From Saprospiraceae bacterium (GTDB lineage Bacteria > Bacteroidota > Bacteroidia > Chitinophagales > Saprospiraceae), in NCBI GenBank assembly GCA_022448955.1, contig JAKVCU010000062.1, positions 10,379-74,378 of the forward strand: a DNA stretch of 64,000 nt. The letters are read 5' to 3'. The notes beneath the pieces were generated by a model, which was not told the DNA's origin, ran no database searches, and was given only the letters and a program-made list of their open reading frames with translations. This document shows, piece by piece, positions 50,314 through 62,586 of the stretch (positions are counted from its first letter, which is position 1; each line of letters starts with the position of its first letter). The translations under genes and the position numbers were made by a program.

Positions 50314-51813
50314 ATGAGCATAGATAAATTAGTAAAAGAAGCCCAAATGGTAAGTTTGACACATCAAACGAGGAGACTGTTTTTAAAAGATCTAACTCTA
50401 GGCCTAGGAGGTCTAGCCTTAGGTTCTTTAATGGGTACTGCTTGTGGTAGAAAGCCAAACGCTATTAACCAAGATATCTTATTTGATCCTATGAATCCAT
50501 TGTCACCTAGGATTCCACATTATGTAGCTAAGGCCAAATCGGTAATATACATACATTTAGCAGGGGCTCCCTCTCAATTGGAATTATTTGACTATAAGCC
50601 AGAATTAGCAAAACTGGATAAAAAAACTTGCCCACCTTCTCTATTAGAGGGGAAACAATTTGCCTTTATCCGAGGCGTTCCTACTATGTTGGGGCCTCAA
50701 GCTAATTTCAAACAAAGAGGTGAGTCCGGAGCTTGGGTTTCTGACCATTTACCTCATTTTGCAAACTTGGCCGATGAAGTGAGCTTTCTGAAAGCTGTAT
50801 ATACAGATCAGTTTAATCATGCTCCAGCACAATTAATGATGCATACAGGGAGTGCAAGATTTGGTAGGCCAAGCATGGGATCTTGGATTACTTATGGTTT
50901 GGGCTCTGAAAATAGCGACTTACCTGGTTTTGTCGTCCTCAACTCAGGAGGTGTTGATCCAGATGGAGGTAAGCATCTCTGGGGTAGTGGATTTTTACCC
51001 TCTGTTTACCAAGGGGTTCAATGCCGATCAAAGGGTGATCCTGTTTTATTCTTGAGTGATCCAAAGGGGATTAATCGCAACCTTCGTAAAGCATCTATTA
51101 AGGCTATTAATAATATAAACCATATTGCACATGAAGAATTTCAGGATCCAGAAATACTATCCAGAATCGCTCAATATGAAATGGCTTTTCGTATGCAAGT
51201 TTCTGTTCCTGATGTAATGTCTATCGACAAAGAGCCAGAATATATTCATCAGATGTATGGGACAAAACTTGGAGAAACGAGTCTGGCAAATAACCTTTTA
51301 CTTGCTAGAAAACTAGTAGAAAAGGGGGTTCGTTATGTTCAACTATATGATTGGGGATGGGATTCTCATGGTACAAGTCATAATGATGATCTGGAAGTAT
51401 CTTTTGTAAATAAGTGTAGATCTATGGATAAACCAGTTTCCGCTCTATTATTGGATCTCAAGCAGCGGGGGTTATTAGATGAGACTTTGGTCGTTTGGGG
51501 TGGTGAATTTGGGAGAACACCAATGCAGGAAAATAGGAATGGGGTTCCTTTAAAATTTGCTGGACGAGATCATAACCCAGATGCTTTTACAATGTGGATG
51601 GCTGGAGGTGGTATCAAAAAAGGTTATAGTCATGGGCAAACAGATGAAATTGGCTACACAGGAGTGGAAGGCCGAACTTCCATTTTTGATATTCAAGCAA
51701 CTATCTTAAATCAATTAGGTTTTGATCATGAGCAATTAACCTATCAATTCCAAGGCCGCCCATTTCGTCTGACTGATGTTCATGGAGAGGTGATTAAAGA
51801 AATTATTGCATAG
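50314..51813 (+). CDS. DUF1501-domain protein with Tat-like signal
   Basis: TRRLFLKDLTLGLGGLALGSLMGTAC; KSVIYIHLAGAPSQLELFDYKP; YDWGWDSHG; WGGEFGRTPM; GRDHNPDAFTMWMAGGG. Confidence 0.94.
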   Translation: MSIDKLVKEAQMVSLTHQTRRLFLKDLTLGLGGLALGSLMGTACGRKPNAINQDILFDPMNPLSPRIPHYVAKAKSVIYIHLAGAPSQLELFDYKPELAKLDKKTCPPSLLEGKQFAFIRGVPTMLGPQANFKQRGESGAWVSDHLPHFANLADEVSFLKAVYTDQFNHAPAQLMMHTGSARFGRPSMGSWITYGLGSENSDLPGFVVLNSGGVDPDGGKHLWGSGFLPSVYQGVQCRSKGDPVLFLSDPKGINRNLRKASIKAINNINHIAHEEFQDPEILSRIAQYEMAFRMQVSVPDVMSIDKEPEYIHQMYGTKLGETSLANNLLLARKLVEKGVRYVQLYDWGWDSHGTSHNDDLEVSFVNKCRSMDKPVSALLLDLKQRGLLDETLVVWGGEFGRTPMQENRNGVPLKFAGRDHNPDAFTMWMAGGGIKKGYSHGQTDEIGYTGVEGRTSIFDIQATILNQLGFDHEQLTYQFQGRPFRLTDVHGEVIKEIIA

Positions 51814-51830
51814 AAATAAATAAAAATTTT

Positions 51831-52736
51831 ATGCCTTTAAATAGAAGAGACTTTTTATCGACAGCGGGCTTGGCGGGAGGAAGTTTGTTGCTTCCAAATT
51901 TAAAACCTATCAGTTTTAGTGTGCCTGCTCAGTTTGAATTGCTTATCCTTGCTACCAATTGGGGCTTTCAAGGCACCCTAGAAGCTTTTTGTGCTAAAGC
52001 AAAAGCAGACGAATATGATGGTATAGAAATCTGGGCGCCCAGAAAAAAGAAGGAACAAGAAAAATTAATAAAAAGTCTTGAAAAATATAGTTTGTCTCTC
52101 GGTGTTTTGGTTGGAGTCGGGGCTTCTGATTTTAAGCAGCATTTTAAAGAGTTTAAAGCCTATCTTGAAGATGCCATAAAATTGAAGCCTTTATTTATAA
52201 ATTGCCATTCAGGTAGAGACTATTTTAGTTTCGATCAAAATAGACAAATTATAGAATTTAGTAATGAGCTAGCAACAAGCTCAGGAGTACCTATTTATCA
52301 TGAGACTCATAGGGCAAGAATTTTGTTTGCTGCTCATATTTCTAAACGGTTCTTGGAGACTATTCCAGCATTAATGATCAGCTTAGATATTTCTCATTGG
52401 ACCAATGTCGCTGCGTCCTTATTGATGGATCAAAAAAAAGCAGTCGATCTGGCACTGAGCAGAACTAGGCATATTCATTCCAGAGTTGGACATCAAAACG
52501 CACCCCAAATTACAGATCCAAGAGCTCCTGAATGGCAAAACGTTATGGATATCCATTTTGCTTGGTGGGATAAGGTCGTTCAGAGTCATATAAATTTGGG
52601 AAAGCGCTTGACCATGACTACAGAGTTTGGCCCTCCTAATTATATGACTGCATTGCCTTTTACTCAGCAGCCTATTACCAATTTATGGGAGATTAATAAT
52701 TATATGAAAGACTTGTGGAGAAAAAGATATCAATAG
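51831..52736 (+). CDS. sugar phosphate isomerase/epimerase-like TIM barrel protein
   Basis: NRRDFLSTAGLAGGSLLLP N-terminus; EYDGIEIWAP; NCHSGRDYF; HETHRARI; SLDISHW. Confidence 0.85.
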   Translation: MPLNRRDFLSTAGLAGGSLLLPNLKPISFSVPAQFELLILATNWGFQGTLEAFCAKAKADEYDGIEIWAPRKKKEQEKLIKSLEKYSLSLGVLVGVGASDFKQHFKEFKAYLEDAIKLKPLFINCHSGRDYFSFDQNRQIIEFSNELATSSGVPIYHETHRARILFAAHISKRFLETIPALMISLDISHWTNVAASLLMDQKKAVDLALSRTRHIHSRVGHQNAPQITDPRAPEWQNVMDIHFAWWDKVVQSHINLGKRLTMTTEFGPPNYMTALPFTQQPITNLWEINNYMKDLWRKRYQ

Positions 52737-52751
52737 AAAATTGATTTAAAT

Positions 52752-54128
52752 ATGGAGAATTTTATTCAATATATTGGAAAGTTTCATCCACTTTTGGTCC
52801 ATTTGCCTATCGGGATTTTAATAGCAGCGGTCTTATTTGATTTTTTATCAAAAAAGGATAAGTACAAGACCTTGGGAGCTTCTGTAAAGATGCTTTACTT
52901 TCTCGGAACACTGGGTGCTTCAGCTTCCTGTCTTACTGGTTATATCCTTTCTACTTCCGGCGAATATGCTGGCTCAAGCTTGCAATTCCATCAATGGTTC
53001 GGGATAGCGGTAGCTTTGCTTGGCTTAGCTCTTTACTATTTTAGATTTAAAGGTAATTGGTCGCTTTATTTTGGTGGACTACTTTTTATTTTGCTATCTG
53101 TTACAGGACATCTTGGTGGCACGCTCACACATGGAGAAGGATACTTGTCCCTTAAATCAAAGAATAGTATAAGACCTGTGCTCACCAATGTTCAGGAGGC
53201 AGCTGTCTATAAGGAGGTGATTGTACCCATATTAGCCGATAATTGTTATAAATGTCATAGTGATAAAAAGCAAAAAGGTCAACTTCGACTGGATACGCCC
53301 GAGTTGATTGCAAAAGGTGGAAAAAGTGGTGTTCCTATTATTAAAGCTGGGAATTCTGATGAAAGCGAATTGATTAGTAGATTACATTTGCCACTTAATG
53401 ATGACATGCATATGCCTCCAAAAAAGGGATCTGAATTGAGTGATGCCCAAATAAAAATTCTAGAATGGTGGATTAATGAGGGCGCTATATACGAAGGCAA
53501 GGTCAAAAGTTTGACTCAAGACAAAACGATTAAACATTTATTAGAAGGCTTGGAAAGTCCTCAATTAGTTAAAAAAACTTCTTCGATTTATCCAAATATT
53601 GACCCCGGCCCCTTCCAATTAGAGGCAATTCCCCCTTTGAAAGAAATAAGGGCGGTAGTTTTACCACTCGGCCAAAATAGTAATCTATTGGGTATCAATT
53701 TTGTGAATGTCGAAAAGGTCAGTCTAGAAATAATGGAACTTCTCATGCCATTGAAAGAACATATTGTCTGGTTAAAGTTAAGCGAGTCTAGTTTTAATGA
53801 TTCTTTAGTGTCATACCTTTTGGAAATGCCTTATTTGAGCAAGTTATTTCTTGATCATACAGCGATAACAGATCAAGGCTTGGAGCAACTTATCCATTTA
53901 GATCATCTTTATTTTTTAAATATTGTTGGGACTAAAACGACTCAAAAGGGCATAGAAAGACTTACGCAAGCATCTACTTTAGATCAGCTATTTATTTATC
54001 AAACTCAGACTACTGCTGCGGAGAAAAGTCAGCTAGTCTCGGTCTTATCGCCTGTAAATGTGGATACAGGAGGTTATATAGTCCCAACATTGGTTGTAGA
54101 CACAACATTAGTTCATGGCAGGGATTAG
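52752..54128 (+). CDS. DUF2231 membrane + planctomycete-type cytochrome c + leucine-rich C-terminal protein
   Basis: GKFHPLLVHLPIGILIAAVLFDF; DNCYKCHSDKKQKGQLRLDTPELI; DMHMPPKKGSELSDAQIKILEWWINEGA. Confidence 0.88.
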   Translation: MENFIQYIGKFHPLLVHLPIGILIAAVLFDFLSKKDKYKTLGASVKMLYFLGTLGASASCLTGYILSTSGEYAGSSLQFHQWFGIAVALLGLALYYFRFKGNWSLYFGGLLFILLSVTGHLGGTLTHGEGYLSLKSKNSIRPVLTNVQEAAVYKEVIVPILADNCYKCHSDKKQKGQLRLDTPELIAKGGKSGVPIIKAGNSDESELISRLHLPLNDDMHMPPKKGSELSDAQIKILEWWINEGAIYEGKVKSLTQDKTIKHLLEGLESPQLVKKTSSIYPNIDPGPFQLEAIPPLKEIRAVVLPLGQNSNLLGINFVNVEKVSLEIMELLMPLKEHIVWLKLSESSFNDSLVSYLLEMPYLSKLFLDHTAITDQGLEQLIHLDHLYFLNIVGTKTTQKGIERLTQASTLDQLFIYQTQTTAAEKSQLVSVLSPVNVDTGGYIVPTLVVDTTLVHGRD

Positions 54129-56616: not shown

Positions 56617-59600
56617 ATGCTTAACGCAAAGTACTTTCTTTCTTCATTAATCTTAATGACAGTGGTAACTGAGCTTAGTTTTTCTCAGATCAATACACCT
56701 CCCATTGCCACAGTCCCCTTTGGTTCAAATCTTGGATATTCTGGATACGTTATGCTTCCGGAAAATCTACCGACTAATGGAATTTATGGTCATGCTCAAG
56801 ATGCAGCGGATGCATACAATCAATGGAAAACTAACTATATTGAAGATTGCGGAAATGGGCAATATCGTGTGCGTTGGGATGAACCTGATAAAACAGTTTC
56901 AGAAGGAACTGCTTATGGAATGTTGCTCGCAGCTTATGCGGCTGATTTTGTCTTATTTGATGGACTTTGGTCCTATTACAAAGAAAGAAGGAATGGTAAT
57001 GGATTAATGGATTTTAAAATAGATGGATGTACCCTTAATGTACTTGGCTTTGGTTCAGCGTCTGACGGAGATATAGATGCAGCGATGGCTTTATTGGTTG
57101 CATCACACCAATGGCCAAGTTATTACGAAATCGATGCTGCAAATTTGATTAATGCTATAAAAGAATTCGAAATCGATACTGTTCAAATTGATGGCCTTGA
57201 TTATTTGCAATTAAATAATGGTGATACATGGTCTTCTTCAGAGGATTGTAGAAACCCAAGCTATCAGGGTCCTGCATATTTTAGAAAATTTGGAGCTTTT
57301 ACGAATGATATTATATTTTGGGACCAATGTGTTGAAGCAAGTTATCAACTACTAGACAACAATGCTGATATTAATACCGGCCTTGTGAGCAATTGGTCGG
57401 ATAGGAATGGAAATCCAAATAGTTGTAATGGGGCAAATGAGTACGGTTACGATGCCTGTCGTAATCCATGGCGAATGGCTACAGATGTTGCATGGTTTAA
57501 TGATACCAATGCAAAAAACATATGTAACAAAATTGCTGGGCATGTCCAAAGTATAGGATCCCATGTAGCTGGTGGGCCAGTTGCTCAAAGCGGTGGTGTA
57601 GGATTATATCATAATGCAACTTTTGTTTCGACTTTCGCTCTTGCTGTGATGGCAGGGGATACGATCTACCAATCTTTACTAGATGAAATGTATCTGGAGA
57701 CTGTAAATACTCAAGACTCATTACCGTTTTATTTTGGAAACACCTTAAGGTGTATTTCTTTATTTATGATGACAGGTAATTTTTGGAATCCTACTAGTCA
57801 AAATACGGGTCTCATTATGCCAGGCTATATTACAGATTCAAAGGTAATGGATCTAATTGGGCCTGAATTACTATTTTTAAGTGAATTTGGTTCCAATGAT
57901 ACTTCCATGTTGTCGGAATCCCTCTTGCAAGTCAATAGCGAAAACAAGGTTTTAATTGAAATTTTAGTTTTAGATGGACAATACGAAAATACTATCTCTT
58001 ATTTAAACACCATTGGAATTACAACGAATGATTTTGTAAAAGACCAAGTTTCAGGTATATCGGATAGTTTGTTGATCACTGCTTTTTTTCCTGTCGAATC
58101 ATTAGAGCTTCTAAATCAACAAAATCCATTGATAAATTTTGTAAGGCCTGTAAACACAGCGCTGACTAATTCAGGTTTAATTGATAGCCAAGGTGATATT
58201 GCACAGGGATCTTTTTTTGCAAGGTCAGGTTGGAATCTTGATGGGGAAGGCATTAAAATTGGAGTGATTTCGAATAGTTATGCTACAAATGAATCTGCTA
58301 GAGTTAACGATATAAATAACGGAGATCTGCCCGGAGATGATAATCCAGTTCAAGTGGTTGAAGAATATCCATATGGTGTGGCTTCTGATGAAGGTCGAGC
58401 GATGTTACAAATCATTCACGATATTGCCCCTGCCAGTCAGCTGTTTTTTCATACTGGATTTGTGAGTGAAGCGAATTTTGCCTACGGAGTTAGACAATTA
58501 AGAGAAGAGGGTTGTGATATTATAGTTGATGATGTCCAATATACAACTGAACCCTTTTTTAGAGATGGCCTAATTGCGCAAGCAATTGACGAGGTGACAG
58601 CAGCTGGGACCTATTATTTTAGTGCCGCAGGAAACTTCGGCTCACGATCTTTTTCTGACACTTTTACTCCTGCTCCCTCTCCTAATGAGGATAAGCATGA
58701 TTTTGGAAATGGCAATTACCTGCAAAGTGTAGAATTAGGGGTTGGAGATTATATTATTGTCCTTCAATGGGATGATGAGTTTTATTCATTAGGTGATTTG
58801 AATGGTGCCTCTGTAGATTTGGACATTTACTTAGTTGAAGACGATGGTACTATTCTTTATGGGTTTAATAGGGATAATAATGGAGATGAAACAAGCGGAA
58901 CTCCAGGAGGAGATCCAATAGAAATTTTACCCTTCTCAGTGGAAAGTGAAACGACCTCCAATATTATGATTCAAATGGATGGTTCTGGAGCGATGCCGGC
59001 ATTTAAATATGTTGTTTTCCAAGCTGGGGATGAAGGGATTTTTGAGGCGAATCCTCCTTTAACCGATGATACAGGTGGGGCGACTATCGTTGGTCATGCA
59101 AATTCAGAAGGATCCATAACAATTGGAGCTACAAGATATTCAAATACACCTAATTACGGTAACCAGCTAAGTCTTGAGTCTTTTTCCTCAATTGGTGGTA
59201 CTCCTGTAAACGGCGTGGTAAGACAAAAACCTGATTTAGTTAGTGCAAATGGAGTGAATACATCAGTTGACTTTAGTTCATTAGATTTAGAAGATGATGG
59301 TATTCCTAACTTTTTTGGAACATCTGCAGCCGCTCCTCATGCCGCTGCTGCTGCTGCTTTGCTTCTTGATGCCCAAAATAAATTTGACTTTAATCCTAGT
59401 GTTGACCCCAGAGCATTATTGACAAATAATGCTATTGATATGGGAGATCTAGGCTTTGATTACCATAGTGGATATGGCTTTATTGACGTGGAGGCAGCGC
59501 TCTCAGAGATAGCAAATCCCAGACCTGAGTTAATCCGATTAAATCTCGCGAATTTGGATACGATGATTTATGAACCAGGTGAGATTCAGTTCGATTTGAT

Positions 59601-62586
59601 CATGGAGTGCGCTTTTCTTACAGATTCTTCTACTGTCGTACTAGATGGTAACGAATTAGAAACTACAATTATCGATGATTCTACTGCAACGGTTACCATT
59701 CCTTTATTCACAGGTAACCCGGGTATTTGGGTATCTAATCCTTCAAAAGCTATCACAAATGGAACAGATGGAGGCAATTCAGATACCTTAAGGTTTTTTG
59801 ATCAAGTGTTGTACGAGGTGATCGTTACAGTTGACCCAAGTACTAAAAGATATGGTGAAGAGCTTCCAAGCTTTTCATTTTCTACTTCGATCCCCGCTTT
59901 GGATTCTACTCTAACACAGGAAGAATTGGAGCTATTAGAGCCAGCTATTAGCTTTACAACAGCAGCTACGGCAGCTAGTAATATAGGTATTTATAGTGTT
60001 GAAGCAGATACTTTAAATATACCAGAGAGTCTGCTAGCATCCTATGAATTCACCCTAGAGCCAGGGGCATTAACCATCGATACGATGCCTCTTATTATTC
60101 GACCCGTTGCTATAAATCCAATAACCTATGGAGATGAAGTTCCAGAAATTACTTTCGAATATATATTTGGGGAAGATGGAGAGGACGTTGAGATTAATTC
60201 AGAGGTGGCAAATACCATCGCATCACAACATTCAGAGGCCTTGTCTTTAGTGAATGGCCTCGCCTTGGTGAATGGCCTCGCCTTAGTGAACGGCCTCGCC
60301 TTGGTGAATGGAGAACTCTTCCTAGATGGCTCTGATAATGGGGCTACCTCAAATGGTATACCACTGATTAATAAGACTTTTTATGTCTCTGAGCGAGTGC
60401 TGGCCGATGCGCCTACTTCATTATCATTGGGTATCGCTTTGGTCAACGGAAATGGAACTGAGCAAATTGTAGAAATTGGAGCAGATTTGTTTACCCAAGA
60501 AAATATAGATAATGGCTCTTTATCTAGCTTTACCAATGGCCTTGCTCTAGTAAATGGCATACCTTTGGTCAACGGCCTTGCTTTAGTGAATGGTATCGCT
60601 TTAGTGAATGGTATCGCCTTAGTGAATGGTATCGCCTTAGTCAATGGCTTGGCACTTGTCAATGGCATAGCACTTGTTAATGGCATTCCACTTGTCAATG
60701 GAATCCCTCTTGTAAATACAGATGGAACTTATGATCCATTATTTGCGGCCTTTGAGGAAAACTATGTGGTTTTGAATACGGATGATTCCGATTCGAACGT
60801 TGATGAGCCAATAAATATTTTCCCAATTAATACAATCACAGGATTGGATCCAGGTACGCAATATATTATTCCAGGCGGGTTTTTTAATGATAATTTAAAG
60901 ATTAATTACGCACCTAGGGCTTTCGAAGTCTATCCTGGACCAGAGATTTCTTGTCCATCAAATCAAGTTGTATCCATTACCGATATGGGAAGTTGTGCTG
61001 TCGACGTTGATTTGACCAACCCAACGAATGAAAATACTGCTATTATTGCAAATACGCTTACCTTAAGTATTAATGATCTTACACCTGAGACAGTTAGTCA
61101 AGGAGATGTTATATCCAAAACATTTGACGTTGGGATAACTGTATTAACATACACTATTACGGATGATAATAGCAATACAGATAGCTGTAGTTTTACGATT
61201 ACTGTCAATGATGTGGAAGATCCAGTAATTACATGTCCAGCAGATATAATTATAAATACGGATATAGGAAATTGTGATGCTGTAGTTAATTACAACACTC
61301 CAGTAGGTACCGATAATTGTACAGAACCCATAACCATATTATCATCGGGCTTAGGTTCTGGATCTACTTTTCCGATCGGTACAACAACAGAAAGTTATAC
61401 AGTAACCGATGGTTCCAATAATACCGCGAGCTGTACTTTTACGGTAAGTGTTTCAGATAATGAACCACCAATGGCTATTTGCTTAGACACTCTAGTTGTA
61501 TTTAATGGCGAGGACTCCATATCTGTCTCTCTGTCTAATTTATATGATGAATTGTCTACTACAGATAATTGTAGTGCTGTTAGTTTGGTATCTTCGATGA
61601 TGGACCAGATAGTTACTTGCGATCAGCTTGGTGACATTATAGAAGTAAATATTGAAGTCAGTGATGAAAATGGAAATTTGGGTTCCTGTTTAGCGAATAT
61701 TTTTGTAGAAGGGTTGCCATGTGGTTTCTCAAATACTTTTGGGCTTGATGATTGTTTTGATCCCCAAGAAAATGAAGCTTATTATGATGCTGCTTCGGAT
61801 GTATTTACCTTAACGAGTGATGGCTGTAAACCAGAATTTCCGTATACAACGGATGATCAAAGCTTTATTACTTATGAGATATGTGGTAATGGAATAATTG
61901 AAGCTTTTGTAAATGATATAAATGGAAATGGTTTTGCTGGAGTTCAAATGCGTGAGAGCGTTGATATGGAGTCTGCACCAAGAGTTGCACTAGGCATAAA
62001 CAGAGTAAATAAAATACTTAAGGAGATTAGGATCTTTTCTAATTATCCAGTATTCCCACAACAATTATTAACCTTTAATACTCCGTTCTGGTTGAAGATA
62101 GAACGCTTATATGGATTTTATTTTAGAGCCTATGCTTCTTCGGATGGGGTTAATTGGACACCATATATTGCCCAATCTGTTTCCATGGATCACTGTATTC
62201 AAGTAGGGTTATTTGTTCAGAGTTCGGTAGATGGACAAGCGGTAAATGCTGAATTTACTGATGTTACAATTACCGAGACAAATAATGCTATTAATAGTAA
62301 TGGCTCAGTCTTTGAAAGCGATCTAAAATCTACATCTACTTTAAATATTGGGCTTTCGCCAAATCCAGCAACTGATGAAATATTTTTAGACTTAAGCCAA
62401 TTCATTGGTCAAGAGGTGAGTATTCAAATATGGAATATTAATAGTCAGCTCTTGGCTGACCGGAAGATTCAAGATCTTGAAAATCCGATAGAGATTCTTA
62501 CAATCAATCAACTACCGGCAGGAGCTTACTGGGTAAATATTCAAACCGCTAACCAGCAAAAGATTTTAAAATTAATCAAAAAATAA
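56617..62586 (+). CDS. giant multidomain secreted protein: GH8 + S8-like peptidase + MBG + LVNG repeats + HYR + T9SS sorting domain
   Basis: GH8 VSEGTAYGMLLAAY/SDGDIDAAMALL; S8 GIKIGVISNSY...GTSAAAPHAAAAAALL; HYR-like DVEDPVITCPADI...; C-terminal LSPNPATDEIFLDLSQF...GAYWVNIQTANQQKILKLIKK. Confidence 0.88.
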   Translation: MLNAKYFLSSLILMTVVTELSFSQINTPPIATVPFGSNLGYSGYVMLPENLPTNGIYGHAQDAADAYNQWKTNYIEDCGNGQYRVRWDEPDKTVSEGTAYGMLLAAYAADFVLFDGLWSYYKERRNGNGLMDFKIDGCTLNVLGFGSASDGDIDAAMALLVASHQWPSYYEIDAANLINAIKEFEIDTVQIDGLDYLQLNNGDTWSSSEDCRNPSYQGPAYFRKFGAFTNDIIFWDQCVEASYQLLDNNADINTGLVSNWSDRNGNPNSCNGANEYGYDACRNPWRMATDVAWFNDTNAKNICNKIAGHVQSIGSHVAGGPVAQSGGVGLYHNATFVSTFALAVMAGDTIYQSLLDEMYLETVNTQDSLPFYFGNTLRCISLFMMTGNFWNPTSQNTGLIMPGYITDSKVMDLIGPELLFLSEFGSNDTSMLSESLLQVNSENKVLIEILVLDGQYENTISYLNTIGITTNDFVKDQVSGISDSLLITAFFPVESLELLNQQNPLINFVRPVNTALTNSGLIDSQGDIAQGSFFARSGWNLDGEGIKIGVISNSYATNESARVNDINNGDLPGDDNPVQVVEEYPYGVASDEGRAMLQIIHDIAPASQLFFHTGFVSEANFAYGVRQLREEGCDIIVDDVQYTTEPFFRDGLIAQAIDEVTAAGTYYFSAAGNFGSRSFSDTFTPAPSPNEDKHDFGNGNYLQSVELGVGDYIIVLQWDDEFYSLGDLNGASVDLDIYLVEDDGTILYGFNRDNNGDETSGTPGGDPIEILPFSVESETTSNIMIQMDGSGAMPAFKYVVFQAGDEGIFEANPPLTDDTGGATIVGHANSEGSITIGATRYSNTPNYGNQLSLESFSSIGGTPVNGVVRQKPDLVSANGVNTSVDFSSLDLEDDGIPNFFGTSAAAPHAAAAAALLLDAQNKFDFNPSVDPRALLTNNAIDMGDLGFDYHSGYGFIDVEAALSEIANPRPELIRLNLANLDTMIYEPGEIQFDLIMECAFLTDSSTVVLDGNELETTIIDDSTATVTIPLFTGNPGIWVSNPSKAITNGTDGGNSDTLRFFDQVLYEVIVTVDPSTKRYGEELPSFSFSTSIPALDSTLTQEELELLEPAISFTTAATAASNIGIYSVEADTLNIPESLLASYEFTLEPGALTIDTMPLIIRPVAINPITYGDEVPEITFEYIFGEDGEDVEINSEVANTIASQHSEALSLVNGLALVNGLALVNGLALVNGELFLDGSDNGATSNGIPLINKTFYVSERVLADAPTSLSLGIALVNGNGTEQIVEIGADLFTQENIDNGSLSSFTNGLALVNGIPLVNGLALVNGIALVNGIALVNGIALVNGLALVNGIALVNGIPLVNGIPLVNTDGTYDPLFAAFEENYVVLNTDDSDSNVDEPINIFPINTITGLDPGTQYIIPGGFFNDNLKINYAPRAFEVYPGPEISCPSNQVVSITDMGSCAVDVDLTNPTNENTAIIANTLTLSINDLTPETVSQGDVISKTFDVGITVLTYTITDDNSNTDSCSFTITVNDVEDPVITCPADIIINTDIGNCDAVVNYNTPVGTDNCTEPITILSSGLGSGSTFPIGTTTESYTVTDGSNNTASCTFTVSVSDNEPPMAICLDTLVVFNGEDSISVSLSNLYDELSTTDNCSAVSLVSSMMDQIVTCDQLGDIIEVNIEVSDENGNLGSCLANIFVEGLPCGFSNTFGLDDCFDPQENEAYYDAASDVFTLTSDGCKPEFPYTTDDQSFITYEICGNGIIEAFVNDINGNGFAGVQMRESVDMESAPRVALGINRVNKILKEIRIFSNYPVFPQQLLTFNTPFWLKIERLYGFYFRAYASSDGVNWTPYIAQSVSMDHCIQVGLFVQSSVDGQAVNAEFTDVTITETNNAINSNGSVFESDLKSTSTLNIGLSPNPATDEIFLDLSQFIGQEVSIQIWNINSQLLADRKIQDLENPIEILTINQLPAGAYWVNIQTANQQKILKLIKK
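60247..60312 (+). repeat. in-frame ~18-bp tandem repeat, block 1 (LVNG x4)
   Basis: Encodes LVNGLALVNGLALVNGLALVNG. Confidence 0.9.
60529..60714 (+). repeat. in-frame ~18-bp tandem repeat, block 2 (about ten LVNG/LVNT units)
   Basis: Encodes FTNGLALVNGIPLVNGLALVNGIALVNGIALVNGIALVNGLALVNGIALVNGIPLVNGIPLVN. Confidence 0.95.

Follow-up and report, generated by a model that had tools for sequence, protein, structure and literature searches.

Within the window analysed here (a 64,000-nucleotide stretch of DNA from a Saprospiraceae bacterium), positions 56617..62586 of the plus strand contain a complete mosaic gene, which runs in an unbroken frame from its ATG to its stop codon and encodes a protein of 1989 amino acids. 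We consider it likely that this gene is real, that a GH8 domain occupies in it the N-terminal slot of a subtilase-fold protein whose tail comes from a third source, and that its product is an exported beta-glucanase of which the remainder serves mainly as scaffold. The observations behind this reading are a single frame, three blocks of homology with their paralogues, intact GH8 residues and a predicted subtilase fold. Each part of the protein belongs to a known kind; the combination is new in the sampled genomes.

A first-pass annotation of the same DNA had described a single uninterrupted ORF, and the frame at 56617-62586 (+) is indeed open over all 1989 codons, a run that would be free of stops with a probability of ~10^-63 given the base composition. 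Domains were called with Pfam (the hits quoted are above cut-off unless marked otherwise) and follow one another in the order GH8, Peptidase_S8, MBG_2, two copies of HYR and Por_Secre_tail, confirming the GH8, MBG, HYR and T9SS tail that had been annotated. All features of the gene described below lie on the plus strand. The N-terminus is hydrophobic and, judged by eye, forms a putative signal peptide (MLNAKYFLSSLILMTVVTELSFS; 56617..56685). We considered and rejected an internal start that would yield the protease part as a protein of its own, because the in-frame ATGs at residues 384-431 have no signal peptide after them. GC3 is 0.25-0.26 in the GH8, S8 and C-terminal blocks and higher (0.32) in the MBG-LVNG block.

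The only full-length match of the protein within its own genome is itself. BLAST divides it into three blocks with paralogues there: residues 1-392 match C9 (63-65% identity), residues 394-1449 match C2 (68-69% over 1055 residues) and residues 1536-1989 match C187 (48-54%). The C9 paralogue is a cellulase of 1871 amino acids (G000 contig C9:16379-21991) with the order GH8-Big-GH9-PKD-CBM3-CBM2-T9SS, and a relative built similarly is present in another Saprospiraceae assembly (L012). The C2 gene has the prodomain, core, jelly-roll insert, MBG and LVNG array in common with the mosaic gene, and has another N-terminus and another C-terminus; in a tree of the S8 module the two are grouped with a support of 1.0. 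At the first joint (57799..57816; residues 395-400, from the BLAST limits to C9 and C2) GH8 homology stops and homology to the prodomain-protease part starts, a boundary that recurs among relatives (~386-407). At the second (60961; residue ~1449), within the HYR stretch, C2 homology ends.

Two separate genes might have been joined wrongly during assembly: the source is a draft of 230 contigs, and the fusion appears in no other sampled genome. The gene is, however, internal to its contig of 78.9 kb, and the junction DNA, searched against the genome, returned only itself, one GH8 paralogue at 69% and chance hits, leaving no repeat for a mis-join. The first joint is in frame and lies at a natural module border on both sides, and no orphaned C2-type N-terminal slot was found elsewhere in the genome, which is estimated to be 100% complete. 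Repeat-driven misassembly was rejected, since the genome contains neither a further close copy of the junction DNA nor an orphan slot. With a unique junction, a preserved frame and no orphaned front end, misassembly of the first joint appears unlikely from these data, and we regard an assembly chimera of two genes as a very unlikely origin of the whole. The fusion of separate genes by error, which the first-pass annotation had named as the finding that would overturn its reading, is not what the assembled data show, as far as they reach.

The GH8 catalytic domain (residues 63-394; 56803..57798) matches PF01270 at 1.9e-39 (Pfam 63-384; 136 bits against a cut-off of 24), covering positions 23-338 of the 341 in the profile, and residues 67-394 align with CelA of Clostridium thermocellum (1cem) at E=1.2e-47. 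The motifs EGTAYGMLL and DGDIDAAMALL, on which the annotation had relied, were both found in the sequence. Conservation was scored over 31 sequences: Glu96 (56902..56904), aligned with the general acid Glu95 of CelA, is invariant (31/31 relatives), and Asp279 (57451..57453), aligned with the general base Asp278, is Asp in 29/31. We take Glu95 and Asp278 to be the catalytic numbering of CelA, with which 1kwf agrees in having Gln at the alignment position of Glu96. Asp150 and Asp154 are also invariant among the 31 sequences. By these alignments, the GH8 catalytic residues are intact in the mosaic protein. In the GH8 tree its sequence forms an early, long branch beside other GH8 sequences of the same bacterial family.

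The protein resembles both the GH8 endoglucanase CelA and the GH8-GH9 cellulases of Saprospiraceae in its whole GH8 domain, in the catalytic Glu and Asp and in the N-terminal place of the domain behind a putative signal peptide. In each of the six relatives that we scanned with Pfam, GH8 comes first, and the partners behind it vary (GH9 with CBM3/CBM2; CBM2 alone; fn3; FIVAR with CBM11; none recognised). Whereas the multi-modular GH8 relatives of Saprospiraceae run on into GH9, CBM, fn3 or PKD domains, the mosaic protein runs on into a protease-fold module, and, unlike in several of those relatives, no carbohydrate-binding module scored above the Pfam cut-off beside its GH8 domain.

An AlphaFold2 model of the protease-like part, built on a 37-sequence alignment (pLDDT 86, pTM 0.88), comprises a prodomain, a subtilase core and a beta-rich insert, with the prodomain situated between GH8 and the core. 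The prodomain-like region (residues ~444-511; 57946..58149) is of the beta-alpha-beta-beta-alpha-beta type according to the secondary structure of the model; the subtilase-fold core (residues ~530-965; 58204..59511) is indicated by PF00082 (8e-14), by the model and by Foldseek, and the model places a jelly-roll-like insert within it (residues ~703-812; 58723-59052). The Peptidase_S8 match in Pfam (residues 792-954) reached 52 bits against a cut-off of 21.8, yet covers only positions 140-288 of the 288 in the profile. The top 11 Foldseek matches were all Csp structures, the best being CspA, CspC and CspB of Clostridium (E 1.7e-19 to 7e-15), ahead of the classical subtilisins. Csp proteins share with the protease-like part a prodomain and a subtilase core broken by a jelly roll; they differ from it in sequence (~15% identity, TM 0.45-0.56) and come from a different phylum, and CspB has Asp-His-Ser where the Bacteroidota family has Glu for His. 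The modelled resemblance is thus treated as a likeness and not a membership, lying in architecture alone between remote sequences.

The subtilase-fold family to which this part belongs occurs often in the genome samples of Bacteroidota drawn from the order, the class and the phylum. Its members follow a common order: an N-terminal slot, a prodomain, a Glu-type core with the jelly-roll insert, and MBG domains with an LVNG array. The slots are from 72 to >570 residues long and hold nidogen-like, LamG, LRR with MopE motif or Ig/PKD domains, or none recognised. The family (57802-59616 and its relatives) combines an invariant Glu for the catalytic His with an oxyanion Asn and a Csp-like architecture, and no description of it was found in the literature searched.

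Conservation of the active-site region was scored over 37 family members. Ser903 (59323..59325), in the motif GTSAAAPH at the nucleophile position by alignment to solved subtilases, and Asn673 (58633..58635), in the AAGN motif at the position of the oxyanion Asn, are both invariant, so that the Ser in GTSxxxP and the oxyanion Asn expected of an S8 peptidase are present. Glu592 (58390..58392; DEGRAM), likewise invariant, is the first residue of the helix that His64 opens in subtilisin, and motif and secondary structure suggest that the two positions correspond. Asn553 (58273..58275; motif I-S-N-S-Y) adjoins the position of subtilisin Asp32; this residue is Asp in 33/37 members, whereas the mosaic protein, its C2 paralogue and two more have Asn. 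Judged by motif and secondary structure, Ser552 or Asn553 occupies the position of Asp32, and Glu592 that of His64. Asp591, His601 and Asp638-Asp639 are also invariant in the 37. An attempt to place the Asp and His with hhalign against the sequence of subtilisin BPN' aligned the Ser half alone. Of the S8-like domain proposed earlier, the fold and the Pfam match hold and the canonical Asp and His positions do not; we therefore use the term 'subtilase-fold' and not S8 peptidase, since the catalytic Asp and His were not found and their positions were assigned by motif and secondary structure.

Sedolisins (S53) carry a Glu at the subtilisin-His position, an Asp four residues further on and an oxyanion Asp. 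The subtilase-fold family shares the first of these with them, in Glu592, but has an invariant Met (Met596) at Glu+4 in place of the Asp, and its oxyanion residue is Asn673, as in S8. Its conserved residues therefore set the family apart both from the S8 triad and from the S53 pairing of Glu with Glu+4. Proteolytic activity of the core of the mosaic protein is accordingly graded here as uncertain, and as more doubtful than for the family, because Asn553 replaces the usual Asp.

These residues bear on a different reading of the protein, as a dual enzyme with self-release, in which an active core would cut after the prodomain (near 512-545) and split the GH8-prodomain portion from the T9SS-anchored rest, or would degrade matrix protein together with GH8. 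The model places a prodomain-like fold exactly between GH8 and the core, for which reason self-processing by the predicted core is possible in principle; the first-pass annotation had suggested such self-processing, or a joint attack on protein-glycan matrices, as a candidate function. Among the Csp proteins that are its best fold matches, CspB, whose core is interrupted by the jelly roll, cleaves its own prodomain, which remains bound (PMC3567191), and the invariance of Ser903, Glu592, Asn673, Asp591 and Asp638-639 in all 37 members suggests that the active site works in the family at large. Against this reading, the canonical His is absent, Asn553 replaces in the mosaic protein and in its C2 paralogue the Asp of 33/37 members, and CspA and CspC are pseudoproteases of the same architecture (PMC6636752). 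We consider the dual enzyme unlikely. The narrower proposal, that the surface GH8 would be freed or activated when the Glu-type core cuts the connecting prodomain, making the predicted core a putative protease-type releaser of its own, we hold to be improbable.

Downstream of the core lie an MBG_2 domain (residues 1069-1153; 59821..60075; PF18676, 4.6e-8) and, within a second MBG-like domain, the LVNG hexapeptide array (60232..60717). The repeats had been noticed in the first reading, and we count 15 LVN units with a DNA period of 18 bases; AlphaFold confidence across the main array is mostly <40, too low to judge a solenoid. Relatives carry the same kind of array with other units (LVNA, IVNA, SVNG, VINGLS). 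Two HYR domains follow (residues ~1446-1612; 60952..61452; PF02494, the best at 1532-1612 with 1.4e-20), and then a C-terminal beta-rich region (61462..62331) that matches other secreted proteins of the genome, on contigs C187, C195, C180, C176, C206 and C227. The segment annotated as lectin-like is present as this beta-rich region, its lectin-like character being suggested solely by a weak, sub-threshold similarity to DUF1349 (E=0.03, 14.5 bits against a cut-off of 32.4). The protein ends in a T9SS type A sorting domain (residues 1915-1987; 62359..62577), detected above cut-off by both Pfam (PF18962, Por_Secre_tail, 1.3e-8) and NCBIfam (TIGR04183, 3.8e-8), as expected of T9SS type A cargo. 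The C-terminal block as a whole (61462-62586) was seen in at least 6 further proteins of the genome and is apparently a house tail of T9SS cargo; the many proteins with the same tail imply, at the level of sequence, that the T9SS machinery is present.

The mosaic protein would be exported through the Sec pathway and T9SS, and its C-terminal tail would serve to retain it on the cell surface or to release it. Its GH8 part would cleave a polysaccharide of the beta-1,4-glucan type; substrate and surface location are presumably those known for the respective families. The protease-like, MBG, LVNG and HYR parts may serve chiefly as a stiff stalk or as a scaffold for binding, with proteolytic activity as a putative extra.

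The joining of GH8 to a protease fold had been called uncommon, and we found it to be unique among the genomes sampled. The samples (298 and 398 genomes from the family, 399 from the order, 395 from the class and 396 from the phylum) overlap and together hold >1,300 distinct Bacteroidota, including one other genome of the genus, and usually at most two candidates per genome were scored. Within this scope no second fusion of GH8 with a protease-like part, and no homologue with the same domain order, was found; GH8 matches and protease matches occurred separately, and the mosaic gene alone covered both. Two candidates were rejected: a match in G824 (327-975) has LamG and not GH8 in its upstream region, and a match in G1303 that reaches residue 430 is a GH8-Ig continuation, like the GH8-GH9 cellulases. 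Literature searches on GH-subtilase fusions and on MBG/LVNG proteins returned nothing relevant. Found in one assembly, the fusion draws no support from conservation across species.

The secreted subtilase-fold MBG/LVNG proteins of Bacteroidota have other domains in their N-terminal slot, and GH8 was found in none of them. GH8, which in this lineage usually stands at the N-terminal end of large secreted cellulases, would have replaced the variable N-terminal segment of a subtilase-fold protein; in the simplest account, a C2-type gene was duplicated and one copy lost its own slot to the GH8 front end. The tail of that copy would have been swapped for the HYR-lectin-like-T9SS tail common in the genome. 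Synteny gave no view of the empty site: in the one further genome of the genus, no orthologous neighbours were found.

The fusion could also be recent and non-functional, a side effect of gene shuffling that can be translated but has no use, as might be suspected from its single occurrence, from Asn553 and from the trees, in which the branches of the GH8 and S8 modules are both longer than those of their relatives, a pattern that could reflect relaxed constraint. Against this, 1989 codons have stayed open, the GH8 catalytic residues and the T9SS tail are intact, and pN is far below pS in the GH8 and S8 modules alike (~0.20 against a saturated pS), although these figures average over time, including time before the fusion. 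This difference indicates purifying selection during the evolution of both modules, and we judge a useless fusion to be highly improbable. The preferred reading stays that of an exported GH8 enzyme on a scaffold.

The flanking genes make no operon partner of the mosaic gene evident: upstream is a GH32 gene on the opposite strand, and ~1 kb downstream a gene for gluconate 2-dehydrogenase subunit 3. Clustered by the GH32 gene, at 50314-54128, are a DUF1501 protein, a sugar-isomerase-like protein and a planctomycete-type cytochrome c (PSCyt1) protein.

A single genome that contains relatives of each block illustrates how T9SS-exported giants are built by the exchange of whole modules at fixed borders. 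The finding also points to a large Bacteroidota subtilase-fold family, undescribed in the literature searched, whose active site is unusual in composition and whose N-terminal slot can be exchanged. Should its protease core prove active, the mosaic protein would amount to a surface cellulase that releases itself.
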